Shown here piece by piece: positions 10,433-52,871 of a stretch of DNA of 56,237 bases. Source of the stretch: Puniceibacterium sediminis (GTDB lineage: Bacteria > Pseudomonadota > Alphaproteobacteria > Rhodobacterales > Rhodobacteraceae); assembly GCF_900188035.1 (NCBI RefSeq), contig NZ_FZNN01000023.1, positions 1 through 56,237 of the forward strand, written 5' to 3'. Both the position numbers and the translations under genes were made by a program. The first letter of the stretch is position 1. Each line of letters opens with the position of its first letter. The notes beneath the pieces were generated by a model that saw only the letters and a program-made list of their open reading frames with translations, made no database searches and was not told the DNA's origin.

Positions 10433-11646
10433 CGGACTTGAGGCATCTTTGGCGACCGGCGTCCGAGGCGTTTGATATCGAGGCCGCCCGCGCGGCTTTT
10501 CCCGCCCTGTCGCAGCTTGCCTATTTCAACTTTGGCGCGCGCGGGGTGATGGCGCAAGCGGCCATCGACTCAATTACCGAGGCCCAGAATACCCTGCAAA
10601 GCGTGGGGCCCGGGTCGCGCATGGGCGCGGCTTTTCTGCGTCGCCAAGAAAGCGGCTTGCTCAATTGTCTGGCGGCCCGACTGGGAGCCGAACCGCAGGA
10701 GCTGGTATTCTGCTCCAGTATTTCGCAGGGATTGTCTCTGGCTTTTGCCGGACTGGAATGGCGACGGGGCGACGTTTTGCTCATCGGCGAGGCGGAACCG
10801 CCGGGCAGCTGGCTGTGGGCCCGGGTGCTGGAGCGTCGATACGGGGTGACGCTGCGAAGTGTGCAACGTCCTTATGACGGGGCGGATTTCGCGCAGCGCC
10901 TGTCGGAAAGCCTGTGTTCGCGCACGCGCATGGTCCTGCTGAGCCATGTGGATTGGGTAACGGGTGCCGCACTGGATTTGGCGGGGTTTGTGACGACCGT
11001 GCGCAGCGGTGTTGCCCAAGAGACCGTGATCGCGATCGACGGCGCCCAGTCGGCAGGGGCGCGGGCGGTCGATCTGAAGGGCCTTGATATCGACTTATAC
11101 GCCGTGTCGGCACAGAAATGGTTTGGCGGGCCGGACGGACTCGCGGCCTGTGTACTGCGCGGGGATCGCCTTTTGCCCAGCCAGATCGGCTGGCATGCGA
11201 TTGATCGAAACGCGCCCGAGGCGCTGTCGCTGTCTTCAGGCGCCGCTGGGTTTGGCTGCGGCTCATTGCCAGTAGGGTTGATGCCGGGATGGCGCACTGC
11301 TCTGGAGTGTGCTGATCGCTTCGCCGCGCCCGAGCAGCGTTTCGCGCGCATTAGGCACCTGACGGCGCATCTGCGCGCGGGCTTGTCCGAACTGTGCCAG
11401 CGTTACGAAATGCTGAAGCTTTTGGGGAACCGCTCCGGGGCCGGTATCCTGGCGCTGTCTGTGCCGCAGCGGGACGCCGAAATCTTACTGCGCGCACTCG
11501 ATGCGCAGGGCATGGTGGCCCGCCTGCATAGCTGGCCGCATTCAGTGCGCTTTTGCCTTCATTACATGACGCGTGAAAGCGAGATCGACCGCCTGGTTGC
11601 GATGACGTCCGACATTTTCGCGCGCGGCTCATTGCCCGGGCGCTAG
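10429..11646 (+). CDS. PLP-dependent enzyme, class V aminotransferase / cysteine desulfurase-like
   Basis: A 405-aa fold-type I PLP enzyme of the class V group (SufS/CsdB, isopenicillin N epimerase and EgtE relatives). The cofactor lysine is Lys230 in VSAQKWFGGPDG. The residue before it is Gln rather than the His common in true cysteine desulfurases, and I see no clear catalytic-loop Cys. Other family signs are YFNFGARGVM near the N terminus, LLSHVDWVTGA and AIDGAQSAG (the Asp contacts the PLP nitrogen). C-S lyase, epimerase or amine-transfer chemistry are all possible. Its start overlaps the PKS stop by four bases, so it should act with that PKS. Its 3' end overlaps the convergent PKS gene by 18 bases. 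Confidence 0.85.
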   Translation: MTDLRHLWRPASEAFDIEAARAAFPALSQLAYFNFGARGVMAQAAIDSITEAQNTLQSVGPGSRMGAAFLRRQESGLLNCLAARLGAEPQELVFCSSISQGLSLAFAGLEWRRGDVLLIGEAEPPGSWLWARVLERRYGVTLRSVQRPYDGADFAQRLSESLCSRTRMVLLSHVDWVTGAALDLAGFVTTVRSGVAQETVIAIDGAQSAGARAVDLKGLDIDLYAVSAQKWFGGPDGLAACVLRGDRLLPSQIGWHAIDRNAPEALSLSSGAAGFGCGSLPVGLMPGWRTALECADRFAAPEQRFARIRHLTAHLRAGLSELCQRYEMLKLLGNRSGAGILALSVPQRDAEILLRALDAQGMVARLHSWPHSVRFCLHYMTRESEIDRLVAMTSDIFARGSLPGR

Positions 11647-36604: not shown

Positions 36605-38038
36605 ATGTCAGCGGCTTCTCTCAGATTGCGCTGCGCCAGCCCCAATGACCTGCCGCGCAATCTGAAAGAAGCCGTGGCGCGCGCCGATGTGGCACTTTGT
36701 TGGCCTATCGACACACCCAGAGATGAGGTGAGGGTCATCGAACTCCGCGACATAGGCATTTCAGAAAAGGCCGTGCCCGTTGGTGACCGGTTCGATCCAT
36801 TCGCGCCGGGTTTCCAAAAGGACCCTTACCCTGTCTACCGGCATTGGCGGGACACCGACCCGGTGCATTGGGGGCATGCGCCCGATCAATCCGGGCCGGG
36901 CTGTTGGTACATCTTCACCTATGCCGAGGCCAAAGAGGTGCTGGCCGATCCGCGTTTCGTGGTGGACCCGACCAGCGTCATTCCAGCGGGCTACTTGCCG
37001 ACGCCGCATCCGGAACATCTGCCGTTGTACGAGATGCTGGGGCGCTGGTTCATCTTTCGCGATCCTCCGGATCATACCCGCCTGCGCAACAAGGTCAGCC
37101 AGGCGTTTGATCGATTTGCGCTCGACAGGCTGCAACCCCAGATCGACGCCATCGCATCTGATCTGTGCTGCAGAATCGGCCAGGCATCGCAGGCTGATCT
37201 GATATCGGATTTGGCGCTTGCTTTGCCGCAGCGTGTCATTGCGCACATTCTTGGCTTGCCGGACAGCGATGCGTCCCTCCTGCATGACTGGTCGGTGGCC
37301 TTGCTCAAGGGGCTGGATTTTACCAGCAAAGACAGGTTTTTCGCGACGCGCGCCATTGGGGCGCAGGCCGCGAGCGCCTTGGCTGCGTATCTGGACAGAC
37401 AATTGGACCGGGCGCAGACAGGTGACGGCGTGGGCTTGCTGGCCATGCTGGCGCAAGAGGTCGCGAACGTTCCAGACCTGCGCCAGGAGGTGATCGGCAC
37501 CGCGGCGCTTTTGATCTTTGCCGGTCATGAAACCACGGTCAACTTGATTGGAAACGGCTTTGAAGCGCTGCTGGACGACCCGGATCAGTTTGCGCGTTTG
37601 CGGCGTGACCCCTCGCTGCGCGCTACGGCAATCGAGGAATGCGCGCGCTATAATTCACCCTCGCAAATCACCTTTCGGTTTGCCTCGCAACGCTGCGTAT
37701 TCCGTGGCAAGGTGATCGAGCCGGGCAGCCCTGTGGGTGTGGTGATTGCCTCGGCCAATCGCGATGGCGAGGTCTTTGATGATCCCGATCGATTTGACAT
37801 TGGACGCTCTAGGAACCCGCATCTGTCTTTTGGCAGGGGCATTCATGCCTGTATAGGAGCGGCCTTGGCCAGGCGTGAGGCGCGCGCGGCGCTGGATGCT
37901 TTACTGATGCACTGCCCGAATATCACCCTGAGCCCGGGGCCACGCCAATGGGCCGAGTCCATAGGCCTTCGCGGGTTGAGACGTCTGGATGTACGGCCGC
38001 AGGCGGAGCGATATTTTCCTGAAAGGAGAGGATCATGA
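36605..38038 (+). CDS. Cytochrome P450
   Basis: A 477-aa bacterial class I type P450. I-helix FAGHETT (about 304), ExxR as ECAR (about 350) and heme loop FGRGIHACIG with Cys416 are all intact. The conserved body begins at FDPFAPGFQKDPYPVY (about residue 62), so the N terminus is 50-60 residues longer than usual; a GTG at 36728 (residue 42) is a possible true start. A monooxygenase acting on the polyketide, peptide or enediyne intermediate is the likely role; ferredoxin partners are not in the window. Its stop overlaps the DUF899 gene by ATGA. It is divergent from the NRPS-PKS operon. Confidence 0.93.
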   Translation: MSAASLRLRCASPNDLPRNLKEAVARADVALCWPIDTPRDEVRVIELRDIGISEKAVPVGDRFDPFAPGFQKDPYPVYRHWRDTDPVHWGHAPDQSGPGCWYIFTYAEAKEVLADPRFVVDPTSVIPAGYLPTPHPEHLPLYEMLGRWFIFRDPPDHTRLRNKVSQAFDRFALDRLQPQIDAIASDLCCRIGQASQADLISDLALALPQRVIAHILGLPDSDASLLHDWSVALLKGLDFTSKDRFFATRAIGAQAASALAAYLDRQLDRAQTGDGVGLLAMLAQEVANVPDLRQEVIGTAALLIFAGHETTVNLIGNGFEALLDDPDQFARLRRDPSLRATAIEECARYNSPSQITFRFASQRCVFRGKVIEPGSPVGVVIASANRDGEVFDDPDRFDIGRSRNPHLSFGRGIHACIGAALARREARAALDALLMHCPNITLSPGPRQWAESIGLRGLRRLDVRPQAERYFPERRGS

Positions 38039-38610
38039 ACCAGATACCAAAGCCGGAAACCCTTTACGCCTTAGAGGATCAGCTGGCGCAACTAGAGGCG
38101 CGCATCCGGCAATTGCGCACCTCCGTGCGCGGCCAGATCGTCCAGGATTACGAATTTTCCGGATGGGATGGACCCATCACCCTGGGCGAACTCTTCGCAG
38201 AGCAAATTCATCTGATCGTTATCCATAACATGGGGGTCGGGTGCCCCTATTGCACCATGTGGGCGGATGGGTTTGTCGGGCTTTTGCCCAACCTAAGCGC
38301 TGCGGCCTCTGTGGTGGTCAGCAACCACGACCCTGTGGAGCGCCAGAAAGAGATCAGCCAAAAGCGCGGGTGGCCGTTCCGCATGGTGGATGCGAGCGCC
38401 ACCGATTTCACCGAAGCTATGGGGTTTTACGCCCGTGAGGGTGAGGATGTCGGGATGCTGCCGGGATGCTCCACCTTCACGCGGGATGCAGATGGCACGA
38501 TTCGACGCCACGCGATGAGCTTTTTCGGCCCGCATGATAAATTCTGCCCGGTCTACAGCTTTCTGGAGCTGCTGCCCTCCGAGGTCGAAGAGCGGTTCAG
38601 CCCGACCTGA
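38035..38610 (+). CDS. DUF899 thioredoxin-like protein
   Basis: A 191-aa protein of the DUF899 (AhpC/TSA-like thioredoxin-fold) family. It has an N-terminal helix, then PITLGELF, LIVIHNMGVGCPYCTMWADGF (Cys pair in GCPYC near residue 70), NHDPVERQKEISQKRGWPF and a final beta part with HDKFCPVYSFLELL. The CxxC site suggests thiol or disulfide redox chemistry. Translational coupling to the P450 suggests that both act on one step, perhaps thiol protection or reduction of an intermediate; this is an inference. GAAAGGAGAGG precedes the ATG. Confidence 0.85.
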   Translation: MNQIPKPETLYALEDQLAQLEARIRQLRTSVRGQIVQDYEFSGWDGPITLGELFAEQIHLIVIHNMGVGCPYCTMWADGFVGLLPNLSAAASVVVSNHDPVERQKEISQKRGWPFRMVDASATDFTEAMGFYAREGEDVGMLPGCSTFTRDADGTIRRHAMSFFGPHDKFCPVYSFLELLPSEVEERFSPT

Positions 38611-38611
38611 T

Positions 38612-38647
38612 CCGTCTGACCCAATGACCGGTCGGCCGCTCAGACGG
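38612..38647. terminator. Candidate bidirectional terminator between convergent genes
   Basis: CCGTCTGA (38612-38619) and TCAGACGG (38640-38647) form an 8-bp perfect stem in the 29-base gap between the convergent DUF899 and methyltransferase genes. The loop contains another dyad (ACCGGT/CGGCCG). There is no T-run, so Rho-independent action is uncertain. Confidence 0.5.
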
Positions 38648-39446
38648 CGCGGGTCCAGGTGTAGACAAGCTCTCGGGACTTGAACGCGCCAAGGTAGAAG
38701 CTGGTCAATTCGTCCCATTGGGCCAAGGCTTCGGCCGCTTCAGGGTTGCCTGGATCATGCATCATGCCCTGCACATTCCGCCGAATGCCCGAGAATACGC
38801 GGATCGCATCGGCATTGGCGTCGCGGGTCGTGACCTGTGAAAACCCGGCACACTGCAAGGCAAGCCTGAGTGCTTGTCCCGGGCGCAGCCCGACAAAGCC
38901 ATCGATCTCATAGGCTCTTTCCAGCGTTGCGCGCCGTAGTGTCGGACCCGCTTGTTGGTCCGCGATATAAAGCGGCTTGCCCAGAGCCAGCGCACTGCGG
39001 GCCGCAGACAGAATCTGCGGCCAGTCGGCCACCAGCGAAAGCGTGTCCAGCAGAAACACCGCCCCCATATCCGGCTGCTTCGCCCGCCAGGTTGCCGCAT
39101 CGGTGCAAAGAAACGATAACAGCGGATTCCGCGCGTTGCGCAGTCTGGCACGGTCGTATTGCGCCGGATTGCGTTCGATGCCGGTCACCCCGGCCCCAGA
39201 GATCTGGGCCAGGAAATCGCAGGCGGCACCGGCCCCGCAGCCAAGTTCAAGCGCCCGATCGCCCTGGCCGAGTTGGGCATCGCGCGCCACATATTCCAGA
39301 AAGGGCCGCCCACCGATACAGGCCAACGGCCAGCCGCCGTGCAGCGGGTCATAGACCGCACGGCGCCAGATTTCGCTGTCCGCTGCGGCATAGATCTCTT
39401 CCTGCCGCCGTGTTGCCCGAGCGGTGTCAAACTCCATCCCTAACAT
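38640..39446 (-). CDS. SAM-dependent methyltransferase
   Basis: A 268-aa class I methyltransferase. Motif I is ALELGCGAGAACDFL, followed by GIERNPAQ (acidic residue for SAM ribose), the FLLDTLSLV motif and PLYIADQQAG. The substrate is unknown; O-, N- or C-methylation of the product or its sugar-like parts would fit. A longer frame reaches 39671, but those residues overlap the AraC gene and look non-native. I take the ATG at 39444-39446, seven bases after the AraC stop, with a second Met three codons later also possible. It is the last gene of the enediyne operon. Confidence 0.85.
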   Translation of the reverse strand: MLGMEFDTARATRRQEEIYAAADSEIWRRAVYDPLHGGWPLACIGGRPFLEYVARDAQLGQGDRALELGCGAGAACDFLAQISGAGVTGIERNPAQYDRARLRNARNPLLSFLCTDAATWRAKQPDMGAVFLLDTLSLVADWPQILSAARSALALGKPLYIADQQAGPTLRRATLERAYEIDGFVGLRPGQALRLALQCAGFSQVTTRDANADAIRVFSGIRRNVQGMMHDPGNPEAAEALAQWDELTSFYLGAFKSRELVYTWTRAV

Positions 39447-39453
39447 CGCGGCG

Positions 39454-40251
39454 CTATTGCCTGTATCGCGTGCAGGGCGCGAGAACCGATTGCGCGGCCT
39501 CACCTGCCGCAAGCACCGGTAAAAGCGGCGGGTCGAACTCGGTTGATTGCCGCAGTGCGATGTCTGGTAGATGCGGCACCGCGCAGAGGGCCTCATGGCC
39601 AAGAGGCTCTGACCGGAGGACCGATCGCGGCAGCAAGAGGGCGTTAACATCCCCAGACCAGGGGATCGCAAAGGCGACGGCCTCCTGACCCCATCCCGGA
39701 AGCTCGGTATGGGGTGCGCGTTTCAGGCCGGCAAGCCTGGCATAGGCATTGCCGGCCGCGAAATAGGCTGTTGCTCGCAGTTGCAGGGCATCGTCGGCGT
39801 CGCCGCCGCACACGGGTAGCAAGGCATGCGGATCCAACTGATCCCGCAACTGCCGCAAACCTGTCGGCGTCAGTCCGACAACGGCCTTGAAGCGGTTGTT
39901 GAAACTGCCCAGGCTTTCGTATCCGACCTCGTAGCAAATGCTGATGACGCTATCGCCAGTCCTCAGCAGCATCTGCTTGGCCCGGTAGAGCCGCAAGGCG
40001 GACAGATAGCGCATCGGGGTAATGCCCGTCAGCTTGCGAAACGCCCGGATAACGCAAAACGAGGAGTGGCCCATGTCCTCGGCAAGCTCCCGCAGCATCA
40101 TCGGCTGATCGAGGTTTTCACGAAAATGCGCCACCAGGGTGCGCACGACGGTTTTCGCAAGCATACCGTCCATCTGCATGCCCGCCGGATTGTCCCACCG
40201 ATTTTGGCGGTGGGACAGGGCACCGGATCCGGAGACCAGATCATGCGGCAT
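39454..40251 (-). CDS. AraC-family regulator with N-terminal HTH
   Basis: A 265-aa protein. The AraC double helix-turn-helix is at the N-terminal half (about 35-135: LRELAEDMGHSSFCVIRAFRKLTG, then VISICYEVGYESLGSFNNRFKAVVGLTP), while AraC proteins more often carry it at the C terminus. The C-terminal 130 residues (LQLRATAYFAAGNAYARLAG onward) are an unrecognised, possibly ligand-binding part. It sits inside the enediyne operon, three bases after the 437-aa gene, so it is made together with the core enzymes and may give feedback. Confidence 0.85.
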   Translation of the reverse strand: MPHDLVSGSGALSHRQNRWDNPAGMQMDGMLAKTVVRTLVAHFRENLDQPMMLRELAEDMGHSSFCVIRAFRKLTGITPMRYLSALRLYRAKQMLLRTGDSVISICYEVGYESLGSFNNRFKAVVGLTPTGLRQLRDQLDPHALLPVCGGDADDALQLRATAYFAAGNAYARLAGLKRAPHTELPGWGQEAVAFAIPWSGDVNALLLPRSVLRSEPLGHEALCAVPHLPDIALRQSTEFDPPLLPVLAAGEAAQSVLAPCTRYRQ

Positions 40252-41580: not shown

Positions 41581-42066
41581 TTATGGGTTGGTTGCGTTTA
41601 CTGGGTCGAGGGGTGATCGTGCGGGCGGGCCGCCGGACGATGCGCGATAGGCCCGCAACGCGGTCGCCAGTTCGTCGGGGATCGGGCAGGGCACCATGGT
41701 GTCGCCGCGCTGCCGCATGCTGCGGATTTCCTGACGGCCCCGGGCAACCTGTTGCCAGCCATCCCTACGCGCCAGCCGGTAATCAAAGCTCAGCAGGATG
41801 CGGTTGCCGGTCTGTTCGACCAGGGACATGCCAAGCTCGATCTCGTCGAAGGCGCGCAACTCTTGAAAATAATCACACGCGACGCTGACCGTGACGAGCC
41901 GCAGGTCCGCGGCGATCTCCACCAGGGTGCCGGGCGCATTGTCGCGCAGGAACATCTCGCGACAACTGCCCTGCCAGGCGATGTGTCTGGCAAAGTAGAC
42001 ATTTCCGACCACATTCGTCTCTTCGAAGGTCACCACATGGCGATGGGTGAATACCGGTGTCGTCAT
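41581..42066 (-). CDS. Enediyne hotdog-fold thioesterase (CalE7/SgcE10 type)
   Basis: A 161-aa single hotdog-domain thioesterase of the family that releases the linear polyene from enediyne PKSs. The hallmark TFEETNVVGNVYFARH followed by WQGSCREMFL is very close to the enediyne TE consensus. DYFQELRAFDEIEL and LLSFDYRL follow in the expected order. The start is the ATG at 42064-42066, overlapping the PKSE stop by ATGA; an upstream extension to 42240 is a shadow of the PKSE gene. It works in trans with the PKSE. Confidence 0.93.
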   Translation of the reverse strand: MTTPVFTHRHVVTFEETNVVGNVYFARHIAWQGSCREMFLRDNAPGTLVEIAADLRLVTVSVACDYFQELRAFDEIELGMSLVEQTGNRILLSFDYRLARRDGWQQVARGRQEIRSMRQRGDTMVPCPIPDELATALRAYRASSGGPPARSPLDPVNATNP

Positions 42067-45000
42067 GCGAGGCTTTCCTTTGCGGTGGCGGGTGTCAGCA
42101 TCAGCGCGATACAGCCGTCGTTTTGCACGGCGTGGCACAGGATCTGCGCGGCGCCGCAGCGAAACGCCTGAAAGCCGGGCTCGCTGCCCTTCAAAGGCAA
42201 CAGAGGCTGAGCGGCCGGCACCCCGCCCTTGCGAGCGCATTCGCGCGCGGCCCAGACTGCGGCAAAGGCGTTCGCGATACCGGATGCGTGCAGCTTTTCC
42301 GCGATCAGACTGTCGTCGCGGACAAGCGGCGTGTCGTCACGGGTGGCGGTTTCAACCAGATCGCAGGCCAAAACTCCGGGTCCACGCGCGCCAAAGGTCA
42401 AAGAGGCGGTATGGCTCAGCGACAGCGCGTCGGGCCCGTCGAGCATTTGAAGTCCGTCGCCACGGCGCGTCGCCTCGGTGGCGTCCAGTGCGCCCATCAC
42501 GATCTGGCGACGGGACTGGCGGTCTGCGGAGTTACAGATGGCTGTACGGATGTCACGGCGGCGCGCATGCAGCACGGCGGCGCGCTGCATGGCGGCCGGA
42601 AAAAACGGATAGGCCAGCCTGTCGATGGACCGCTCGGCGATCGCCCGAAAGCGCGCGCCGCGCCAATATTCAACGATGGCACCGTCCGGGCCACGCCATA
42701 GGACGTCGAAAACAAAGGTATTGCCGTCAGAGGCGCGCTCGACGGCCTCGACGCTGACGCGCCGTGCCTCGGGATCGGCAATCTGGATCTGCGCCACGGT
42801 GACGGGCAGAACACGGCGCTGCGGCACGCAGGCCTGCAGCACATGCAATCCGGCATCGCGGGCGCCCGCATCGCCAAGCACCATATCCTGGCTTTCGAAC
42901 GGGCCGAACCAAGGGGCAGCAGAGGCATTGGATAGATTGGACAGCCCGGCGCGCAGGGAGAACGCCGTCAGGTGGTCGATCTCTTCCACCCTTTGGAAGC
43001 GCCCCGAATTAAAGCACAAATCGCGGTACAGAAGCGCCCCGTCGATCCGGCAATTTGCGGCAAGGTCAAAGGCCTCCGGCCTGTCCAAAGTCGGCTCAAA
43101 CGATAGCGTCACTGTCGCCCGATCCGCGCTGAACCCGTCGTCCGATGCGCGGATCGCTGCAAGCAGGCTGCCGTCATCGCGCCGCAGTACTGCCGTGCGC
43201 AGGGTAATTTCGTCCCCGTCAAGCGTCACGGCACCAAGCAGGTCGAGATCGCGAAAGCCAGTTGGCGCATGTCCCGTCAGCGCCTTGGCCGCCTGTGCCA
43301 TCGCCTCTAACATCAGCACAGCGGGCATGACGGCTGTACCCTCAACCACATGATCGGTGATCCAGGGGTCCGATCCCCGCGCCAAGCGCGTGTCCACAAC
43401 CAGTTCGATCCCGGGAAAGCGGATCTGGGCCGTTTCAAGGAACCGCCCTTGCAAGCTGGGCTGCGCGGCAAAGCCAAGGGTCCGGGGTTGCCCGAAGCGT
43501 CCGGTCACGATTAAGTGCTCGTCGGATTGCGGCGCATATAGCAGGACGCAAAGCCGATCCAGCGCCGTGCCAAGCGGGATCGCTTCGACGCCCCTGCGGG
43601 CCAGCCGCTCTACCGCGCCGATCCGTTCCCCCATGCCCGCGCCGGCCCAGACCGACCAGTCCAGTGCGAGGGTGCGTAAATCGTGGCAGCGTCCCCACCG
43701 CATCAGCCGCGCGGACATCATCGCGTTGGCCAGCGCATAGTGCGTTTCACCGGCCAGCCCCAGGGCCCCGATGACAGAGCCAAAGCCGATGGCCAAACGG
43801 ATACGCTGAGGATCAAGCGCGCAAAGAAGCGTTTCCAGCCCTTGCAGCTTCGGCGCGAGCGCCGCGCTAAGGGCGGTCGCGTCGAGCTGGTCAAAGCCCG
43901 CCGGATCATTGACACCCGCCGCGTGCAGAAAGGCGGTGGGTCGTTCCTCTTCCGGCAGCGTCTCAAGCGCGTTCCGAAACTCGGATGCATCGGTGACGTC
44001 CGCCTGCAAATACCGCGCCCTGCAGCCCTGAGCCTTGGCGCGGCGCAGTGTCTCTGTCACAGCCGGGTCGTCGCCTGAGCTGCGCCCGACAAGCAGCAGT
44101 GCCGCGCCGCTGACCTTTGACAGGCGCAGGGCGGACTCCGCACCGATCCCCTTGGCTCCGCCAGTGACAAGCAGAGTATCGCACGGTCCCAGACCTGCAG
44201 CGGTGTCATCCCGCGTGCGGCACTGGCTGATCGGGACAAATTCCAGAACTGCGCGGTCAAGACCACCGGCGGCGCGGCAGCGATACTGCGCGAATGGCTC
44301 TGCCTCTGTGCGCAGAAGCGTGGAAATACCGGCCTCTCGTGCCGGACCGTCCACGCCTTGCGCATCGACCAAGGTGATGTGATCGAAGACACCATCCTCA
44401 AGCAGCGCACCGGCAAAGCCCGAAACCGCCATGCCCGGATGCAGGATCAGCAGTTTCCTTAGCCCTGCGGCTCGTGCGGCCTTGACCCTTGACCACAGCA
44501 GGTGCGCGGCAGCGGTATCGTCCGGCAAAGCGACGTCCATCAGGCTGACAAGGCCGGATTTTGTCCCATTCGCAGTGGGAATGCCTCCGGGGTCCGGCCC
44601 GAACAGGCACCATTCGGGGGCTTCAGCGGCGGCTTTAGGCCAATCACAGACCTGCCAGACACTGCGATATTCACCCACCCAGGGTGCGACACCTTCGATG
44701 CTTTGCGGTGTGGTGTCCTCACCCGGGGCGAACTCCAGCAACTCGTCCAGGAGGCGCGCCAGACCGTACACCGTCTCGGCCGCCACATCGGTGGCAAGCG
44801 CCGGTTGCCGGAGGCCAAGCGCTTGCGCCGCCGCCTTTACGATTCGGCCCACCGAGAGGGAATTGAGGTGCAGATCCTCAAGCAGCCGCGCCTCGGGTTT
44901 GACCAGGCTCAAGGGCAGGCCAAGCGCCTCTGCCGTGGCTTTGCAGACGATATCCAGCGTCGGCGCCGCGCTTGTATGGGCAGGGCGCGCATTGATGTCC

Positions 45001-47690
45001 TGCAATGCAGCCGCTGCGATTTTGGGTTTCACCGCGCTTGGAGGCGGCGCTTTGTCCGACACGCCGCAGGGATTGCGCAGCAATTCCGGCGCGGGTCCCA
45101 GGGGCCGGATCGCGCGATCCGCAAACAGCAGCCCCAGATCAAGCCGACCGCCCAGGCGCCACACGGTGGCAAGGGTGTCGAGCAATCCGAATAAGGTTTC
45201 GGCACCGACATCGGGTGACGCCACTTGCAGACCGGCATCGCGAGCAAGGCGCGACAGACCTTTGCCCGGTCCGACCTCGATCACCAGATCGCAGTGCTGT
45301 GCCAATTGGGCGCAGACCTCGGAAAACCGCACAGGGGCACAGAGCTGCTGCGTCAGGATCGCGGACAGATCGCTGCTGGCCTCAATCGGCGCGCCCGTGA
45401 CGGTCGAAATCACCGGCATCTGCGGCGCCGACCAGGGTACATCCTGCAACGCGGCGGCAAGGGGCGTTTCGACCTGCGCCATCGCGGCGCTGTGAAAGGC
45501 ATGCGAGACCTTCAACAGCTCGCAGCTCAGCCCCGCAGCGCGTGCCTTTTGCATCCAACGTACCGCCGTTTCCTGCGGTCCGGCCAGGACCACATCGCGC
45601 GCTCCGTTCAGACAGGCGACTTCCAGATCGTCGGGGCGGCCAAGCGCGGCGATCTCTTGAGCCGAGGCAGTCACCTGCAGCATTGTGCCACCTGCCTCGC
45701 CATGGCGGGCCATCAGCTGGCCACGGGTCTGGACCAGATCCGACATCTCCTGTCGGGGCAGCGCACCTGCCCAGTGCAAGGCGGTGATCTCGCCCAGGGA
45801 ATGACCTGCGGCAATCTCTGCCATGATCCCGGCCTGCGTCAGGACGTCCAGCCCCATAAGAGCGGAGGCGGCAATCGCTGGCTGCGCATGTTCGGTGGAT
45901 ACGCTGGCATCGCTGGGGAAAGTGGCCAGCGTATGAGGCAGGGAGGGAAAGCGCCGCGTCCAGGCGCCGCCCGAGGCCCGCACAGGGGCCGCCTGTCCGG
46001 GAAACACAAACCCGATGCGCGGCGGGCTGCGCACGGGGGCGGGCGGGATTGAGAGCGCTTTTGTCAAAGCCTCCTGCAAGGCCTCCGGGCGATCCGCGAC
46101 AATCGCCGCACGGAACGCGGCTTGGGGTACGGCATCCCGAAAGCAACCGGCAGCGGCATCGGCCATTTCGCTGTGCGACAGGCTGGGTGCGCGTTTCAGA
46201 AGCGCGTTCATCGCCTGGTGCAGTTCCTCCGCGCTTTGCGCTGCAAAAATAAAAAGCTCGGCCTCTTGGGCAAGGGGTTGCGCGGGCACAGACACGCGCT
46301 TTGCGTGCCTGATCTTGCTGTCCGGACCCGCAAGGACGAGGTGCGCATTGATGCCGCCAAACCCGAAGGCAGAGACTCCGGCCAGCCGCGTGTCACTACG
46401 GAACTCGCCGACCTGCGCTGGGCACAGCCTGCCGCCGCTTTCGGCAAAGATCGGGTGCGGCACGGCGCAGCTGATATGGGGCGGGATTATACCGTTTTTC
46501 AGCGCCTGCGTGGTCTTGATGACCCCGGCGATGCCAGCCGCTGCCTTGCAATGGCCGATATTGGCCTTGATAGAGCCAACAGGAATCGCCGCGCCGTCCT
46601 GACCGATCACTTCCGCCAGGGCGGTGATCTCGGTGGGATCGCCAATTGCAGTTCCGGTGCCATGCGCCTCGAAATAGGCGGCCTCTGCGGGGGCGTGACC
46701 GGCCCGTGCCCAGGCGCGGGCAATGGCGCGCGATTGGCCCGGTGCGGTCGGTCGGGTCAGCCCGCCAGCGCCATCGGTCGAACATCCCCAACCCGCAACC
46801 CAAGCCAGCGGGTCACCGCCCAATTTTTGCGCGGCCTCTTCGCTCGCCAGAACAGCGATGCCGCAGCCCTCGCCTGGCCAGAAGCCGCTGGAGCGCTTGT
46901 CGAAAACCCGCATTTCATCGCGGCAAAGCGCGCCCGTGCGCGCAAAGCCCACCAGCTCAAATGGATCCAGGCTGAGGTCGACGCCGCCCACAATCGCGAC
47001 GTCCAGATCGCCCTGGACGATATGCGAACAGGCTTCGCTGAAGGCCAGCAGGGAGGCCGCACATGCCCCGTCGACGGTCCAGGCGCCGCCGCCGAGATCA
47101 AGCTGGTTGGCAATGCGCCCGGCAATCGTATTGGCCAGCGCACCCGCCAGCGATTCCTCATTCGGGTCGGGAAAATCCTGCGCGAGGTTCGCGGCAAAGG
47201 TGCTGGTGACTTCGTCGATGAGGTCCGGCGCGATTTGGCCCGCCTGCAAGGCCTGAGACAGATGCCGTTTGAGATAGGGCAGCCGCAGACGCATCTGCGC
47301 GGCACGGGAAAATTCGCCAGTCAGTGTGTTGCCCAGGATGACGGCGGTGCGCCCGCGCGGCAGGGCCTCTGCGCCACCGACCGCCCCGACCGCCGTCATC
47401 GCCGTTTCAAGCGCCAGCCAATGGGTTAGATCGGCGGTGTCAAAGGTACTTTTGGGAATGCACAGGCGATCCCGGCGAAACTGCCAATCGGAAATCAGTC
47501 CGGCGTAAATCCTGGGGATCGAGTCCTCAGTGCCGATGTGTTCAACGGCATAATCCCCCAGAGCCAGCCGTTGCGGCGGAATGGCGCGGAACGATCGCCG
47601 TCCGTCCAGAACGTTCTGCCACAAGGCATCCGGGCTGGGCGCCTCGGCATACCGGCAGGCCGTGGACAATATGGCGATCCGGTTTGTCAT
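42063..47690 (-). CDS. pksE: Enediyne polyketide synthase PKSE (KS-AT-ACP-KR-DH-PPT)
   Basis: A 1875-aa iterative PKS with the unique enediyne order. KS (1-450) has TDLTHWLALETA, GNTLTGEFSRA, VDGACAASLL (Cys about 209), EAHGTGTAIGD and KANIGH. AT has GHSLGE (about 630) and SHAFHS (about 728, malonyl). The central ACP has DLHLNSLSVGRIV (Ser about 943), the PKSE-type motif. KR has TGGAKGIGA (about 1175) and intact HYALAN (about 1316). DH has DHVVEGTAVMP (about 1449). The C-terminal phosphopantetheinyl transferase domain shows LACDLVE (about 1771) and WAARECARK (about 1812), where the usual Lys is Arg. It makes the polyene precursor of the enediyne core. Confidence 0.96.
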   Translation of the reverse strand: MTNRIAILSTACRYAEAPSPDALWQNVLDGRRSFRAIPPQRLALGDYAVEHIGTEDSIPRIYAGLISDWQFRRDRLCIPKSTFDTADLTHWLALETAMTAVGAVGGAEALPRGRTAVILGNTLTGEFSRAAQMRLRLPYLKRHLSQALQAGQIAPDLIDEVTSTFAANLAQDFPDPNEESLAGALANTIAGRIANQLDLGGGAWTVDGACAASLLAFSEACSHIVQGDLDVAIVGGVDLSLDPFELVGFARTGALCRDEMRVFDKRSSGFWPGEGCGIAVLASEEAAQKLGGDPLAWVAGWGCSTDGAGGLTRPTAPGQSRAIARAWARAGHAPAEAAYFEAHGTGTAIGDPTEITALAEVIGQDGAAIPVGSIKANIGHCKAAAGIAGVIKTTQALKNGIIPPHISCAVPHPIFAESGGRLCPAQVGEFRSDTRLAGVSAFGFGGINAHLVLAGPDSKIRHAKRVSVPAQPLAQEAELFIFAAQSAEELHQAMNALLKRAPSLSHSEMADAAAGCFRDAVPQAAFRAAIVADRPEALQEALTKALSIPPAPVRSPPRIGFVFPGQAAPVRASGGAWTRRFPSLPHTLATFPSDASVSTEHAQPAIAASALMGLDVLTQAGIMAEIAAGHSLGEITALHWAGALPRQEMSDLVQTRGQLMARHGEAGGTMLQVTASAQEIAALGRPDDLEVACLNGARDVVLAGPQETAVRWMQKARAAGLSCELLKVSHAFHSAAMAQVETPLAAALQDVPWSAPQMPVISTVTGAPIEASSDLSAILTQQLCAPVRFSEVCAQLAQHCDLVIEVGPGKGLSRLARDAGLQVASPDVGAETLFGLLDTLATVWRLGGRLDLGLLFADRAIRPLGPAPELLRNPCGVSDKAPPPSAVKPKIAAAALQDINARPAHTSAAPTLDIVCKATAEALGLPLSLVKPEARLLEDLHLNSLSVGRIVKAAAQALGLRQPALATDVAAETVYGLARLLDELLEFAPGEDTTPQSIEGVAPWVGEYRSVWQVCDWPKAAAEAPEWCLFGPDPGGIPTANGTKSGLVSLMDVALPDDTAAAHLLWSRVKAARAAGLRKLLILHPGMAVSGFAGALLEDGVFDHITLVDAQGVDGPAREAGISTLLRTEAEPFAQYRCRAAGGLDRAVLEFVPISQCRTRDDTAAGLGPCDTLLVTGGAKGIGAESALRLSKVSGAALLLVGRSSGDDPAVTETLRRAKAQGCRARYLQADVTDASEFRNALETLPEEERPTAFLHAAGVNDPAGFDQLDATALSAALAPKLQGLETLLCALDPQRIRLAIGFGSVIGALGLAGETHYALANAMMSARLMRWGRCHDLRTLALDWSVWAGAGMGERIGAVERLARRGVEAIPLGTALDRLCVLLYAPQSDEHLIVTGRFGQPRTLGFAAQPSLQGRFLETAQIRFPGIELVVDTRLARGSDPWITDHVVEGTAVMPAVLMLEAMAQAAKALTGHAPTGFRDLDLLGAVTLDGDEITLRTAVLRRDDGSLLAAIRASDDGFSADRATVTLSFEPTLDRPEAFDLAANCRIDGALLYRDLCFNSGRFQRVEEIDHLTAFSLRAGLSNLSNASAAPWFGPFESQDMVLGDAGARDAGLHVLQACVPQRRVLPVTVAQIQIADPEARRVSVEAVERASDGNTFVFDVLWRGPDGAIVEYWRGARFRAIAERSIDRLAYPFFPAAMQRAAVLHARRRDIRTAICNSADRQSRRQIVMGALDATEATRRGDGLQMLDGPDALSLSHTASLTFGARGPGVLACDLVETATRDDTPLVRDDSLIAEKLHASGIANAFAAVWAARECARKGGVPAAQPLLPLKGSEPGFQAFRCGAAQILCHAVQNDGCIALMLTPATAKESLA

Positions 47691-48670
47691 TCCGCAGGTG
47701 CCTGTGAAGCTGCGGGCTGTGCAGGCTCGGGCTGAGGCGCTTGACGCTCGCTCGCCTCAATCATCGGCAACAGCAGCGCGAACCACAGGCCGCGGGCTGC
47801 GGTGACCAGCGTCAGGGCATAAAACAGGCCGAATACGACGTGCAGGTACATGAACAGGGCATAGAGCGCCGCCACAGCTGCCGCGAACAGCACCTGGTTT
47901 CGCCAGCGTGAGGGCGTCGTGGCGGGATCAGTGATCATGTAAAAGGTGAACAATATGAAGGCAAAGCCGCTCATCGGCGCCAGCCCGGCCAGGATCGGCG
48001 TGTCTTGAAGCACGGCGCGGAGGATGCCCTGAGCGGCGAAGAACGCGAGCCAAGCAAGGACAAGGGGCATCCTGCCCGTGAGCTTGGTGTTCAGCAGACT
48101 GCCAGTGCAGATCACGATCAACGGCAACAGCACATCGAGCGTGCCGGTGGTGGCCTCTGAAAATTGGTAGGGCGGAGCGATCCCCACAGTGGGGAACAGC
48201 AACAGAACGATGGTGATGCCAAAGTTGGACGGGTTCAGGACATGGCGCAGACGGTTGCCGATCCGAACCTGTATCAAGCGCTTTGAGGCCACGGCCAAAG
48301 ACGCTGCGAAGGCGATGACCCAAAGCTGCTCCAGCGGCATGAGCAGCATTCCGATCGCCAAGGCGGTCACATGTGCGGACAAGAGAAACTGTATCACGCT
48401 GACCGCGCCACCGGCATAGGCGGGCCTGCGCCTGCCGTCGCGAGCGGCCTGCCGTTCGAGAAACAGCTCTGTGCCATAGGCCGCAGCAAGCGCCACAAAC
48501 GGGGTGATCCAGGATTGCTCGAACCCCAGCCACAGGTGCCCCAGGATGTTCAGCGTAGTGATCGCGATGGCAAATCGGCTCAGGCCCGCCAGACGCTTTT
48601 CCTGCCAGGAGAGACGGGCCTTTTGCGTGAATACTGTGGATGCAGGAACATCTGCGGTCACGAGGGTCAT
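47687..48670 (-). CDS. unbU: UnbU, enediyne-cassette membrane protein
   Basis: A 327-aa integral membrane protein with about eight to nine hydrophobic segments. RHVLNPSNFGITIVLLLFP and FYMITDPATTP are the marks of UnbU, which resembles the D subunit of Rnf/Nqr electron-transport complexes. UnbU is one of the five conserved enediyne core genes; its reaction is not settled. The C-terminal tail is Pro/Ala/Gln-rich. The gene overlaps the PKSE start by ATGA and begins one base after the UnbV stop. Confidence 0.93.
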   Translation of the reverse strand: MTLVTADVPASTVFTQKARLSWQEKRLAGLSRFAIAITTLNILGHLWLGFEQSWITPFVALAAAYGTELFLERQAARDGRRRPAYAGGAVSVIQFLLSAHVTALAIGMLLMPLEQLWVIAFAASLAVASKRLIQVRIGNRLRHVLNPSNFGITIVLLLFPTVGIAPPYQFSEATTGTLDVLLPLIVICTGSLLNTKLTGRMPLVLAWLAFFAAQGILRAVLQDTPILAGLAPMSGFAFILFTFYMITDPATTPSRWRNQVLFAAAVAALYALFMYLHVVFGLFYALTLVTAARGLWFALLLPMIEASERQAPQPEPAQPAASQAPAE

Positions 48671-48671
48671 G

Positions 48672-50537
48672 TCATTGGTCCTTTATCATCGATAGGGCGG
48701 CGCTTTCGCTGGCCAGTACCAGGCGGTTGTGGCCCGGAAAGACGGGCAGATCGCTGCGATGCGTGCCCATTCCGTCGCGCCAGATGACCCGCGCGACCAG
48801 CGGCGCGTCCTGCGGAAATGCCCCCAGACCGAAGTGCAACTCGGGCGCGCTTTTGCCGGAATGGCCGTTCCCGCCAGAGACCGTCGCGCTCATCCGTGTG
48901 TCACTGCCATCGGCGCTGAGTGTGACCTGCGCACCGATCGCGGGGCGCGTTGTGCCGTTGAGGGTCTCGATCCTCAGGTCCAGCACCGCCGAGGATTGGC
49001 GGCTTGGGCTGGTGTTGAGCAACAGGATCGAGTCCATCCATTGCCGGGCGATCAGGGCATCGATGTCACCGTCGCCGTCCACGTCACCCAGCGCGATGCC
49101 ACGTGAGATCGTGCGGGGCTCGAACCCCAATTCCGGGGCCATATCGCGATAGGTCGCGTCGGCATTCGCCACAAAGAAGGTATCGGCGCGGTCTCCGGAC
49201 AGGTCGTCACCTTCCCCGAACTTGGGCCAGACGGCCACGAATTGCAGCAGTTCGTCATTCGCCATCGCCGCCTCGTGCAGTTCCGGCCAGCGATTCGTAT
49301 CACCCTTGAGAAAGCCGGTCGCCTGCAGGATCTCCGGCACGCCATCATTGTTGAAATCGGCGATCCGGGCGTCCCACCCCCAGGCGCTGCGCGCCACGCC
49401 GATTTGGCCGCTGATCTCTTCAAAAGGGGCGCGGCCTTTGGCAAAATCCTTGGCTTTTCCCGTGCCGCGGAACAGCAGATGGCTCTCCATCAGGGCGTAG
49501 TCCTCTGCGATATTGCTGACGTAGAGGTCAAGATTGCCGTCGCGGTCGATGTCCGAGAAATCGACTCCCATGCCCTTGAAACTGTCGCGCCCCAGGGTGC
49601 GCGACCGGGGCGTCGCAAGCCCGCGCTGTCCGGTCACTGCGGCAAAGGCAGCGGCGCCTTCACGGCTGCGGTTGTGCAGCAACTGATCCGGCCCGAAGTC
49701 GTTGGCGACAAACAACTCGGGCAGGCCGTCGCCATCAATGTCCGCAGCTCCGGCGGCGAGGGTCCAGCCCGCGTTGTTCCCTGCGGCTGCAGAGACAAGC
49801 CCGCCGCTGTCGTCCTGAAACAGCAGCTCGGTTTGCGATGGATCGGCATGGCCCAAGAGCAGGCGGTTGCGTCCTGCGTTATACGCGCGGCTCATGGAGC
49901 GCTGCATGTGCACCGTGCCGCGCGTTCCGAGAACGGCCATATCGTCGGGGAAATAGTTGCCGAAGAAGAGGTCAAGAATGCCGTCCCCGTCAAAGTCGGC
50001 GGTGATGGCAGCATTTGTGTTCCAAACCTCCGGCCGCGCCAGCAGATCGCGCTCGGCGAAATCTTCGGCAGCCAGATGCAGCGACGGGCTGCGCCCCCAG
50101 TAGTAAACCACCAGATCCTGACGCCCGTCCTGATCGGCATCCAGCGGCAGACATCCCATGGGGGCCACGCTGCCCGGATCGCTGGCGGATCCTTCCCAAC
50201 TCAGCGAAAAGGGTGCAAAGCGGTTGCCGGTCGTGGGCACGGGGGCCACGGTCACGCTGTCGAACCGCGGATCGACCAGACAGTAATCATTGTGGCGCCC
50301 ATCACCGTCCAGATCGAAGAGCGCCACACCAGCCCCGACCGCCGACACCCAGGCGGCGATACGCTCGAATCCCGGGTGTACATTGCGGACCGACTGGGGC
50401 CTGTCTCCCAGAGCCTGCAAGGTATGTCGTTCAAAGGCGAAATCGCCGATCTCGGGTCTGTCTACTTGGGCGGACAGCACGGCGATGCCGTAAAAACAGC
50501 CCGGGATCGCCAGAGCGGCAAGGTAGGTTCGGATCAT
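48672..50537 (-). CDS. unbV: UnbV, ASPIC/UnbV and FG-GAP repeat protein
   Basis: A 621-aa protein of the CRTAC1/UnbV type. An N-terminal hydrophobic segment (LAALAIPGCFYGIAVLSAQ) looks like a signal peptide or anchor. FG-GAP/VCBS calcium-binding-like repeats follow (DFDGDGILDLFFGN, DIDGDGLPELFVAND, DIDRDGNLDLYVSN, DFNNDGVPEI, DVDGDGDIDALIA). The C terminus has the ASPIC/UnbV domain (GAQVTLSADG... ELHFGLG). It is one of the five genes that define enediyne loci; the export signal puts it outside the cytoplasm. The start overlaps the UnbL stop by ATGA. Confidence 0.93.
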   Translation of the reverse strand: MIRTYLAALAIPGCFYGIAVLSAQVDRPEIGDFAFERHTLQALGDRPQSVRNVHPGFERIAAWVSAVGAGVALFDLDGDGRHNDYCLVDPRFDSVTVAPVPTTGNRFAPFSLSWEGSASDPGSVAPMGCLPLDADQDGRQDLVVYYWGRSPSLHLAAEDFAERDLLARPEVWNTNAAITADFDGDGILDLFFGNYFPDDMAVLGTRGTVHMQRSMSRAYNAGRNRLLLGHADPSQTELLFQDDSGGLVSAAAGNNAGWTLAAGAADIDGDGLPELFVANDFGPDQLLHNRSREGAAAFAAVTGQRGLATPRSRTLGRDSFKGMGVDFSDIDRDGNLDLYVSNIAEDYALMESHLLFRGTGKAKDFAKGRAPFEEISGQIGVARSAWGWDARIADFNNDGVPEILQATGFLKGDTNRWPELHEAAMANDELLQFVAVWPKFGEGDDLSGDRADTFFVANADATYRDMAPELGFEPRTISRGIALGDVDGDGDIDALIARQWMDSILLLNTSPSRQSSAVLDLRIETLNGTTRPAIGAQVTLSADGSDTRMSATVSGGNGHSGKSAPELHFGLGAFPQDAPLVARVIWRDGMGTHRSDLPVFPGHNRLVLASESAALSMIKDQ

Positions 50538-51550
50538 TTCTGGACTCCTGCGCGAGGCGCGTCAGAACGCGCCGGGAACTGATCCTGCACGTTTTGTCGC
50601 CAGTGTTCGTAATGCATCAGAGCCCCGGCGCGGTTTTCAGGTGCACCCGCAGGCTGGCCGCGTCGCGCAAGCGCTGCGGCCTCGACTGCCGACAACTTGG
50701 TCAGCGTCCGGCTGACCGTTTCAAGGTTGTCGTTGACCAGCCCCTCAGTGATCCGCGCCAAAGCGGCAAAGGCCGCGCCCTGTGCCAAAGCGGCGCGATG
50801 CGCTGACAGGCCCTCGGCCACGACCTCGCACAGCTCGTGCGAGGCAGGACCGGCATAGGCCATGGCAAGACCCAGCCCCGCCGCAAGATCGTTGTGCCGC
50901 GCCGGATCGAACTTTGCGATCAGACGCAACGCCAGGTCGCCCCGGGCCAGAGACCGAAACCAAAGCGCCCGACCGATGCCCTGATCATAGGCCTTTGCAC
51001 TCAGGCCCGTGCCGCGCCCCATCCTGCCCAGGCCTGGCCGGTCCGGCCGGAAGAAAGCGTCGTGAAATCCGCGCCCATCCAGGGTGAGGGTGAACAACTT
51101 TGGCGGCGTCTGATGAAACAGACGCGACCCGATCCAGGGCATCCGCGCCAGAGCCCAGCCCGTGCCCACCTGGATAAGATAGCTGTAGCGTGATCCAAAG
51201 ACCTGCTGAAGCGCCCGCAAGTGGCCACCGCGCACTGACAAGCTGTCGCGCACCGCAGATCCCATGGCCGCACCTTCGACCAAAAAGCCAGCCAGATAGC
51301 CTGGTCGTGCGTCCAGCGCCTGCTCTAACCTCGCCAGAGTATTGACGCCAAGCGCCAGATTATATCCCGACACGAAGGTGTCGCAGATGGATTGCAGATG
51401 GTCATATCTTTCATGATCAAAGCAGCCCTTGCGCAGGTGCGTCAAAGAGGCCGCCTTTGGATCCAGCCTGAGCAGAGGCGCAAGGTAAAAGCCACACTGC
51501 GGTCTTTGGGCGGGTATTGTCTGCGGGTCCTGAGCGTTGACAAGGCTCAT
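50534..51550 (-). CDS. unbL: UnbL, DUF1702 family protein
   Basis: A 338-aa soluble protein of the DUF1702 family, the UnbL/SgcE3-type member of the enediyne core cassette. Recognisable parts are FVSGYNLAL, GYLAGFLVEGAAMGSAVRD, IQVGTGWALAR, DGRGFHDAFF, IGRALWFRSLARG and DLAAGLGLAMAYAG. Its function in core maturation is unknown. It overlaps both neighbours by ATGA, which couples its translation to the preceding small gene. Confidence 0.93.
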   Translation of the reverse strand: MSLVNAQDPQTIPAQRPQCGFYLAPLLRLDPKAASLTHLRKGCFDHERYDHLQSICDTFVSGYNLALGVNTLARLEQALDARPGYLAGFLVEGAAMGSAVRDSLSVRGGHLRALQQVFGSRYSYLIQVGTGWALARMPWIGSRLFHQTPPKLFTLTLDGRGFHDAFFRPDRPGLGRMGRGTGLSAKAYDQGIGRALWFRSLARGDLALRLIAKFDPARHNDLAAGLGLAMAYAGPASHELCEVVAEGLSAHRAALAQGAAFAALARITEGLVNDNLETVSRTLTKLSAVEAAALARRGQPAGAPENRAGALMHYEHWRQNVQDQFPARSDAPRAGVQK

Positions 51551-52088: not shown

Positions 52089-52871
52089 TTATCGAGCGGA
52101 AACTTCCGCCTGAAAAAAACCATCGAGCGCGTGTTCTGATGGGTCGGCGCAAAGTGCGTCGTACAGTGACCGGGTCCGGCGTGTGGGTTTGGCGTGGCAT
52201 TCCGCCCAGACAAAATTTTCGAACCGCTCGAAATGCTGTCTGATCTTTTGGCCCTCGCCGCGCAGGGCGTGCAGCAGCAGCATACGCCGGTGGACAGATT
52301 CGCGCAGCGGATCGTGGACAAGAATGATGCGGCAGCCCTCTGCCGCGTGGCTGTATTCGCCCTCTTGGATAAGTTGATCGACGATCAAAAGACAGGAGCG
52401 CACAAACAGCCCAAGCAGTCTCTCGCGTTCGAAAATGGTCCAGCGGTTGACATGGCCGGGAATGAACCCCCCGTTGTAGATCGCGACAAGCTTGCGATAA
52501 TGCTCTCGCACGTCGCCCTGTCCCTCCTTGAGTTGACGATAGGTGCCGGCCAGGATCGCCGTATCGCTGGCATCCGGAGTATCCATGAAGATACCCAGGC
52601 TCCATTTGTCGGAAAGCATTTCGATATTCGGAAGGCTAGGCGCCGCCAGGGCACGGCGCAAGCGCGAAGTGGTGGAATTCAGCGCTGATTTTCCATCGCT
52701 CCGGTCGTCACGTTCCCAAAATTTATCAATGATATCATCGCGGTCGAGCAAGCGGTTGGCGTTTTGGAAAAGGTAGGCAACGCATTCGCGCCCGGCAACG
52801 CCGATGCCTGGGCAACGGGAATATTTACCAACGCCGATCTGAAAGGTTCCCAAAAATTTTGCGCCCGGCAT
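52089..52871 (-). CDS. SARP/BTAD-type transcriptional activator
   Basis: A 260-aa regulator. The N-terminal part (about 5-95) has FLGTFQIGV, RECVAYLFQNANRLLDRDDI and SALNSTTSRLRRALA, the OmpR-like winged helix of SARPs. From about 110 the bacterial transcriptional activator domain follows (AILAGTYRQLKEG, HYRKLVAIYNGGF, FERERLLGLFVRS, AAEGCRIILVHDPLRESVHRRM), a TPR-like region. SARPs typically switch on antibiotic clusters and are most familiar from actinomycetes. A TGA lies in frame just before the ATG, fixing the start. It lies directly upstream of the enediyne operon, in the same direction, and is its probable activator. Confidence 0.85.
   Translation of the reverse strand: MPGAKFLGTFQIGVGKYSRCPGIGVAGRECVAYLFQNANRLLDRDDIIDKFWERDDRSDGKSALNSTTSRLRRALAAPSLPNIEMLSDKWSLGIFMDTPDASDTAILAGTYRQLKEGQGDVREHYRKLVAIYNGGFIPGHVNRWTIFERERLLGLFVRSCLLIVDQLIQEGEYSHAAEGCRIILVHDPLRESVHRRMLLLHALRGEGQKIRQHFERFENFVWAECHAKPTRRTRSLYDALCADPSEHALDGFFQAEVSAR

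Follow-up and report, generated by a model that had tools for sequence, protein, structure and literature searches.

A complete enediyne polyketide synthase cassette forms one end of a conserved 51.5-kb peptide-polyketide gene block with leinamycin-like sulfur genes in the roseobacter Puniceibacterium sediminis

Our analysis of a 56,237-nucleotide stretch of Puniceibacterium sediminis DNA (contig NZ_FZNN01000023.1; hereafter, the window) revealed a real enediyne polyketide synthase (PKS) cassette, which makes up one end of a block spanning 51.5 kb (window 1355-52871). The 20 genes of this block, from a BTAD regulator (52871) to a 380-aa protein (1355), are collinear in Labrenzia sp. THAF82, with all strands kept. 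An initial annotation, made from the sequence alone, had recognized the cassette correctly, whereas the surrounding hybrid nonribosomal peptide synthetase (NRPS)-PKS block with its leinamycin-like sulfur genes had escaped it. We consider it somewhat probable that the whole block encodes one hybrid pathway, in which the product of the enediyne cassette would be joined to a thiazole-containing polyketide that receives biosynthetic sulfur. Gene content, motifs, clade membership, host, and conserved linkage were observed, and from them we infer the chemistry, the joining step, and the product.

The five genes E4-E3-E5-PKSE-E10 (UnbL-UnbV-UnbU-PKSE-thioesterase [TE]) are intact, contiguous, and arranged in the usual order on the minus strand, just as had been claimed. 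E4/UnbL (DUF1702; 50534..51550) matched PF08012 at an E-value of 9.4e-61 and is 47% identical to its THAF82 counterpart, while E3/UnbV (48672..50537; 66%) carries the Pfam domains FG-GAP and UnbV_ASPIC. The membrane protein E5/UnbU (47687..48670) is 67, 63, 46, 40, and 43% identical to five other UnbUs, and its match to NQR2_RnfD_RnfE (E-value, 1.1e-5; 25.5 bits) lies slightly under the family cut-off of 27.7. The 1,875-aa PKSE (42063..47690) displays the domain order KS-AT-ACP-KR-DH-PPT. KS, AT, KR, and DH were recovered by Pfam, with the AT matching that of DynE8 at an E-value of 2.2e-42; ACP and PPT gave no Pfam hit at E 0.001 and were assigned by motif only. The motifs of all six domains align with those of 17 other PKSEs shown from an alignment of 71, among which L075 is gapped in the DH and PPT columns and L018 has a divergent PPT motif. 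The domain order and intact motifs predicted by the initial annotation therefore held. PKSE relatives in the 40 plasmid records among the matches listed are 34.6-40.1% identical to it, and none was found in viral contigs. The hot-dog thioesterase E10 (41581..42066) most likely starts at 42066, giving 161 aa, and not at the long open reading frame (ORF) start at 42240, which overlaps PKSE. Its best matches in the PDB were DynE7 (1.5e-36), the ACP-polyene thioesterase 4i4j (1.8e-36), and CalE7 (2.3e-33); six distinct PDB sequences matched at 2.3e-33 or better, and the next one at 1.2e-3.

The THAF82 counterpart of the block occupies approximately 3561214-3612759 of the chromosome, from a record titled complete genome of which 100 kb was fetched for comparison. 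Protein identities range from 47.1 to 78.8%, with the highest values for a 166-aa protein (78.8%), the 441-aa protein P6 (77.1%), and E5 (71.8%), and with 51-53% for the megasynthases. THAF82 was also the best E5 hit of our scan (72%), and its chromosome carries the window's Cy-A-Ox NRPS at 54%. Near the block end, a 125-aa ORF in THAF82 and a 191-aa ORF in the window (2604-3179) are unpartnered, and no THAF82 matches were found past the two end genes, where the window offers only 1.4 and 3.4 kb. In the NCBI taxonomy, Labrenzia belongs to Hyphomicrobiales/Stappiaceae and Ruegeria, from the family of the window's host, to Rhodobacterales. The retention of a 20-gene linkage between orders at 47-79% identity suggests that selection has held the block together.

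The assembly line that fills most of the block is of the cis-AT NRPS-PKS type, with two heterocyclization modules and a thiazole-type oxidase; its domains were read from Pfam matches and motifs. On the minus strand lie an NRPS-PKS with the order A-PCP-Cy-A-PCP-KS-AT-DH-KR-ACP (26424..36512; 51% identical to that of THAF82), an NRPS with a Cy-A-Ox(nitroreductase)-PCP module of the thiazole/oxazole type (22426..26427), and two PKSs with the orders KS-AT-DH-KR-ACP (17180..22429) and KS-AT-MT-KR-ACP (11629..17262). On the plus strand lies a fifth megasynthase, a PKS with the order KS-AT-DUF-DH-KR-ACP (4157..10432), which also has a THAF82 counterpart. The Pfam Condensation model matched only the 22426-26427 protein, and the Cy domain of the 26424-36512 protein was placed by its motif and its similarity to the former. 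Both Cy domains of the window carry the heterocyclization motif DxxxxDxxS; in THAF82, the motif is intact in the second domain, and T replaces the last S in the first. All four modular KSs retain Cys-His-His; among the four modular ATs, GVSLG or GYSAG replaces GHSxG in three. The specificity codes, read by eye and serving as leads only, were DVQLTAQVV (proline-like) for the loading A domain and DLFNLSLIW and DLFNFSLVW (cysteine-like) for the Cy-linked A domains. A role of the loading domain as a fatty-acyl-AMP ligase taking up the polyene was dropped, as the domain reads as an amino-acid adenylation domain, with TIGR01733 as its best NCBIfam match (274 bits; cut-off, 317). A direct repeat of 2.28 kb was observed across the KS-AT regions of two modules (window 19695-21973 and 28924-31202), the two copies being 98.2% identical in the window and 99.96% identical in the equivalent modules of THAF82, with 74-78% identity between the genomes over alignable parts. 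The twin KS-AT modules seem to have been homogenized independently in each genome, unless the copies were merged by assembly.

Two elements of the block point to biosynthetic sulfur. The first is a leinamycin-type DUF domain (PF09924) at residues 940-1230 of the 4157-10432 PKS (6974..7846, plus strand), identified by Pfam and BLAST. It matched the DUF of a Kitasatospora PKS with a BLAST E-value of 2.9e-22 (1.9e-27 for the THAF82 domain), although identity is only 24-28%; the DUF of leinamycin type likewise belongs to PF09924. In the plasmid collection, the window DUF was matched in eight records, namely four that the leinamycin-type DUF of Kitasatospora also matched, at 58-100% identity, and four annotated as DUF2156 proteins. 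In the two of the former that were opened, the DUF adjoins LnmK-family and HMG-CoA-synthase genes, which marks these two as leinamycin-type lines. Of 292 genomes of the order, one, the window's own, carried the domain, and none lacking the cassette did; among 21 chosen genomes or records, it was present in three, the window's own, THAF82, and a leinamycin-type control. The second element is a pyridoxal phosphate (PLP)-dependent C-S lyase of the L-cysteine/cystine lyase (C-DES) kind (10429..11646, plus strand), which has a THAF82 counterpart. Its best PDB match was 1elq (7.1e-49), with cysteine desulfurases at 3.7e-14 or weaker, and the motif AQKWxGGPDGLA is present in the lyases of both the window and THAF82. 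This lyase is a separate class V PLP enzyme (PF00266) and not a PF01212 SH domain, and it gave no BLAST hit to the Kitasatospora leinamycin-type protein at 1e-4. In two accounts of leinamycin biosynthesis (PMC8479088, PMC7618002), the DUF is proposed to add thiocysteine, and cleavage of the C-S bond by a PLP-dependent SH domain would then leave a persulfide. Leinamycin-pathway PKS domains are also named, in the portion available of PMC8547425, for a metagenome-assembled genome discussed under Myxococcota, not Labrenzia.

Under the single-pathway reading, the PKSE would modify its own ACP through the PPT domain and condense malonyl units iteratively, with KR and DH activity, to give an ACP-bound polyene. 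E10 would release this polyene, and E3, E4, and E5, judging from their families, would steer it to a core of the diyne or enediyne type. Meanwhile, the NRPS-PKS would load an amino acid (the code being proline-like), form a thiazoline and later a thiazole from two cysteines, insert C2 units between and after them, and introduce one C-methyl branch. The KR and DH of the DUF-bearing PKS module could yield an enoyl thioester, to which the leinamycin-type DUF may add cysteine or thiocysteine, and the neighboring C-DES-like lyase would then cut the C-S bond to set a thiol or persulfide. The P450, the methyltransferase, and the DUF899 protein are candidates for tailoring, and a further, putative joining step would couple the products of the cassette and the NRPS-PKS.

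To place the cassette in a broader context, we scanned one genome per species for 84,980 species with a UnbU alignment and obtained 440 loci encoding UnbU relatives. The 80 best by similarity to the window were kept together with up to 10 kb of flanking sequence, which makes gene absences reported for them local. These loci come from alphaproteobacteria, cyanobacteria, planctomycetes, acidobacteria, gammaproteobacteria, actinomycetes, and others, and 14 of them are of alphaproteobacterial type, with two titled only Proteobacteria (L023 and L027) assigned from their position in the KS tree. All five cassette genes lay within the stretch in 51 of the 80, and the E4>E3>E5>E>E10 order and strand were kept in 47 of these 51, an arrangement that is not chance. 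DUF1702 (E4) was found in 3 of 390 genomes of the order, comprising the window's own and two of one other genus, and in only the window's own among 398 genomes of a phylum sample. A 2023 survey by Singh et al. documents KSs of the enediyne type in Proteobacteria, Cyanobacteria, and further phyla, and it traces enediyne compounds only to Actinobacteria and ascidian extracts (PMC10308959). Together with the 440 loci, this makes the rarity of the cassette weaker than previously supposed: its presence in a proteobacterium is not new in itself, and the earlier restriction to actinomycetes was overstated for the cassette. Enediyne-type KS reads have also been described in seawater, with no tie to Rhodobacteraceae in the accessible part of that source (PMC4691048). 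Within the literature covered, which leaves out most subscription journals, no report was found that joins enediynes with Labrenzia or with proteobacterial PKSE clusters.

Several of these loci displayed features of their own. AarF/UbiB (ABC1) atypical kinases lie within the stretch in 11 of the 80 cassette loci (L018, L020, L028, L029, L051, and six more) and are also noted for L016, and in L018 and L029 the UbiB-type kinase adjoins a protein of 466 to 489 aa that belongs to no known family. In Sinorhizobium meliloti T073 (L004), a complete cassette, a BTAD regulator, and two P6 homologues reside on the conjugative-typed pSymA megaplasmid, with a DndB-like gene upstream. The Ruegeria-type cassettes of two genomes held as separate species (G295 and G033; L006-L007 and L010-L011) are 99.8-100% identical, the genes beside them are only 84-97% identical, and these neighbors resemble Tn7-type transposition genes, judged by eye with no family search; this cassette is perhaps a recently moved island.

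A number of observations weigh against a single hybrid pathway. The full block was seen in only one other genome, THAF82, and 18 of 20 cassette-bearing genomes or records lack the DUF domain, the exceptions being the window's own and THAF82. No gene in the block stands out as a link between the two halves, Pfam scans recovered no TE domain from the NRPS-PKS, and general Pfam scans of the block returned no transporter or self-resistance families. The E6 flavin reductase, the E9 GMC oxidoreductase, and DUF5987 are absent from the window, which makes a C-1027-like core less likely, and from the 14 alphaproteobacterial-type loci with their 10-kb flanks. Moreover, both copies of the cluster have a higher G+C content than the one stretch sampled for comparison in each case (0.645 versus 0.558 in a single 20-kb stretch of the host, and 0.618 versus 0.539 in one 20-kb flank of THAF82), suggesting that the cluster may have been acquired horizontally in both, and block transfer could then also explain the conserved linkage.

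The absence of these accessory genes bears on an alternative that we take seriously while rating its chances slightly below even, namely that the cassette is real and its product is not a cyclic enediyne, the pathway halting instead at a polyene or diyne acid in linear form, which the final molecule would incorporate much like a fatty-acyl unit. In addition to the 14 loci without E6, E9, or DUF5987, a search of five whole genomes, the host's included, found DUF5987 in none of them, in a run without a positive control. The linear outcome also has a precedent, as co-expression of a PKSE and a thioesterase in E. coli yielded a linear conjugated heptaene, according to the part available of PMC8725005. 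Conversely, the missing accessories are compatible with an enediyne because a comparison of ten enediyne clusters (PMC5181780) identified the five cassette genes as the set that all of them share and describes no apparent conservation beyond these. Across the 80 loci, the accessories were uncommon in general (E6 in 13, E9 in 8, and DUF5987 in 8), and the P450, DUF899 protein, and P6 of the block could supply other chemistry. Gui et al. are said to have argued, in Nature Chemical Biology in 2024, that the cassette makes a shared diyne intermediate.

A further alternative, possible although in our judgment unlikely, is that two independent pathways stand side by side, the cassette (~36.6-52.9 kb) and a leinamycin-like NRPS-PKS (~1.4-36.5 kb), which would be co-inherited, perhaps co-regulated, and give two products. 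Each kind of system has been seen without the other: the whole genome of Ruegeria arenilitoris and the S. meliloti T073 plasmid carry a cassette and no DUF-bearing NRPS-PKS, and leinamycin-type lines have no annotated cassette gene in the fetched stretch. The failure to recognize a coupling enzyme fits this arrangement as well. However, two separate pathways would not readily account for the order of 20 genes kept at ~50% identity between different orders, nor for the AraC, methyltransferase, DUF899, and P450 genes placed between the halves, and one hybrid pathway is our preferred reading.

The window is the whole of contig C51 (56,237 bases) in a 4.64-Mb assembly of 69 contigs (99.83% complete, 0.05% contamination). 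The 16S of this assembly is roseobacter-like, with 94.9-95.1% identity to Ruegeria/Tritonibacter over 66-69% of a 2-kb query, and gave no sign of an actinobacterial host; the window's genome and that of Ruegeria arenilitoris (G033) belong to one family. The initial annotation had read the flanking genes as proteobacterial, and the host indeed proved to be an alphaproteobacterium, a roseobacter rather than an actinomycete. It is very improbable that the contig is a contaminant from another organism. The G+C difference given above, the shortness of the contig, and the transposase remnants at its start might suggest as much, but fragments from the start of the contig reappear elsewhere in the assembly, on further contigs (97% over 314 bases and 87% over 310 bases), which is evidence against contamination, the assembly's estimated contamination is minimal, and related alphaproteobacteria carry such cassettes. 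An actinomycete host or contaminant was rejected on the 16S and the shared insertion-sequence fragments, and a circular plasmid was ruled out, the contig ends having no overlap. Positions 1-1200 hold transposase fragments (HTH_Tnp_1 by Pfam), parts of which are found again elsewhere in the genome. At the other end, just beyond the conserved block, a 718-aa ORF (53186-55342) had no Pfam hit and is unmatched in the THAF82 region.

Our KS tree comprised 89 KS domains (>330 aa), namely 75 of PKSE type, 10 outgroup rows, and the four modular KSs of the window, on which it was rooted. The outgroup rows came from 12 TIGR02813 loci (L114 and L115 were left out), and three of these 10 rows pass the family cut-off. 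One Ruegeria genome appears twice (G033 and L018), and L050 forms a very long branch. The KSs of the calicheamicin and dynemicin PKSEs are absent from the tree, and that of an SgcE6-annotated S. globisporus locus (L014) is in it. All 75 UnbU-linked PKSE-type rows formed a single clade (ultrafast bootstrap, 89), within which the window is sister to THAF82 (support, 100) and falls in a clade of 17 alphaproteobacterial-type rows (support, 100; 27 when L026 is added to make 18 rows). Eight of the 10 TIGR02813 outgroup KSs formed their own group, resembling polyunsaturated fatty acid (PUFA) synthases (support, 100), outside the PKSE clade, and the other two fell with other PKSs. The KS tree proposed with the initial annotation thus placed the window KS with the PKSEs, apart from PUFA-type enzymes. 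That the large PKS is a PUFA synthase is hardly credible and was rejected, since its match to NCBIfam TIGR02813 (PfaA; E-value, 1.2e-120), strongest over the KS region, reaches 404 bits, far under the cut-off of 1010, and both the KR-DH-PPT order with the UnbU/V/L/TE partners and the position of the KS in the tree speak against it.

Next to the thioesterase gene lies P6 (40255..41580, minus strand), with a helical N-terminal part, a beta-rich C-terminal part, and no Pfam family of its own. In its homologues, the N-terminal part showed a HEAT match that is weak in S. clavuligerus (E-value, 0.01) and clear in S. meliloti (7.6e-8). P6 was found in 17 records of the plasmid collection, 16 from S. 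clavuligerus and one from S. meliloti; in 14 of these (13 and one, respectively), it lies ~4-7 kb from the listed PKSE, whereas the PKSE place listed for the other three S. clavuligerus records is >150 kb from it. Four of the 80 loci encode P6 (THAF82, Dulcicalothrix, and two Saccharopolyspora), these hits being near the cassette by design, and in L004 and L016, whose neighborhoods were inspected directly, P6 likewise lay near a cassette. Among 380 genomes of the order, only the window copy was convincing, as a second hit (3.8e-4) covers the HEAT-like part alone. The AlphaFold model of P6, built with five sequences, was poor (mean pLDDT, 52.6), and Foldseek with this model returned no match at E ≤ 0.001. 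A relationship between P6 and the Ruegeria 466-aa protein was rejected because neither profile search recovered the other's members.

The remaining genes of the block include regulators, tailoring candidates, and small proteins. The BTAD/SARP-like regulator at the block end (52089..52871, minus strand) carries Trans_reg_C and BTAD domains by Pfam, is 48% identical to that of THAF82, and has homologues in 11 of the 14 alphaproteobacterial-type loci. Family searches identified an AraC-type regulator (39454..40251, minus strand), a DUF899/AhpC-TSA thioredoxin-like protein (38035..38610, plus strand), and a cytochrome P450 (36605..38038, plus strand), each with a THAF82 counterpart. The S-adenosylmethionine-dependent methyltransferase (38640..39671, minus strand) probably starts near 39431, where the THAF82 match begins. 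Toward the other end lie the 166-aa protein of unknown family (3576..4076, minus strand; 79% to THAF82), for which a DynF-like role was rejected as no PDB match appeared up to E 1, a DUF3291 protein (3115..3579, minus strand; 63%), and the 380-aa protein of unknown family that closes the block (1355..2497, plus strand; 62%; no family hit).

The window thus shares with the C-1027, calicheamicin, and dynemicin cassettes the five genes, their order, the PKSE domain order, and the TE signature, and its KS lies in one clade with that of the SgcE6-annotated S. globisporus locus. In contrast to those cassettes, it belongs to a deep alphaproteobacterial clade, shows none of the E6, E9, or DUF5987 homologues that some actinomycete loci have, and has its cassette tied by synteny to an NRPS-PKS. 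Leinamycin biosynthesis employs a cysteine heterocycle and C-methylating modules, as the window does, on an AT-less line, and the leinamycin family (leinamycin, guangnanmycin, and weishanmycin) further resembles the window in its hybrid NRPS-PKS, a PF09924 DUF within a PKS, and a PLP-dependent C-S lyase. In contrast to leinamycin, the window's line is cis-AT, its lyase is freestanding and of the C-DES-like class V kind (PF00266) where leinamycin has a fused SH domain (PF01212), Pfam scans at the thresholds used detected neither LnmK/HMGS-type genes nor a TE domain in the block, and the line is linked to an enediyne cassette. THAF82 has the same 20 genes in the same order, at 47-79% protein identity, with the extra 125-aa ORF near the end. 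Ruegeria arenilitoris and S. meliloti T073 resemble the window in the five-gene cassette with a BTAD regulator and differ from it in having no DUF domain (whole genome and plasmid only, respectively); as a counterpart of P6, S. meliloti T073 has two homologues, whereas Ruegeria has the 466-aa protein and the UbiB-type kinase instead.

The cassette and a sulfur-adding peptide-polyketide line could together make a new kind of DNA-reactive compound. In its fullest form, which we put forward only tentatively and consider rather doubtful, the block would represent a new marine alphaproteobacterial class in which an enediyne or diyne core is attached covalently to a bis-thiazol(in)e polyketide, the DUF and the C-DES-like lyase set a thiol or persulfide, and P6 is a new partner of the cassette. 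If so, one assembly line would give both the DNA-reactive core and a built-in sulfur trigger, to which the trisulfide of calicheamicin bears a functional likeness. P6 itself presents a specific new candidate for a processing or protective role. With the same kind of domain standing beside an unrelated lyase, the DUF and C-DES pair offers a natural experiment on what the leinamycin DUF does, a question still unsolved. Because the whole block is present in the sequenced, named strain Labrenzia sp. THAF82, enediyne production by cassettes from outside the actinomycetes is directly testable.

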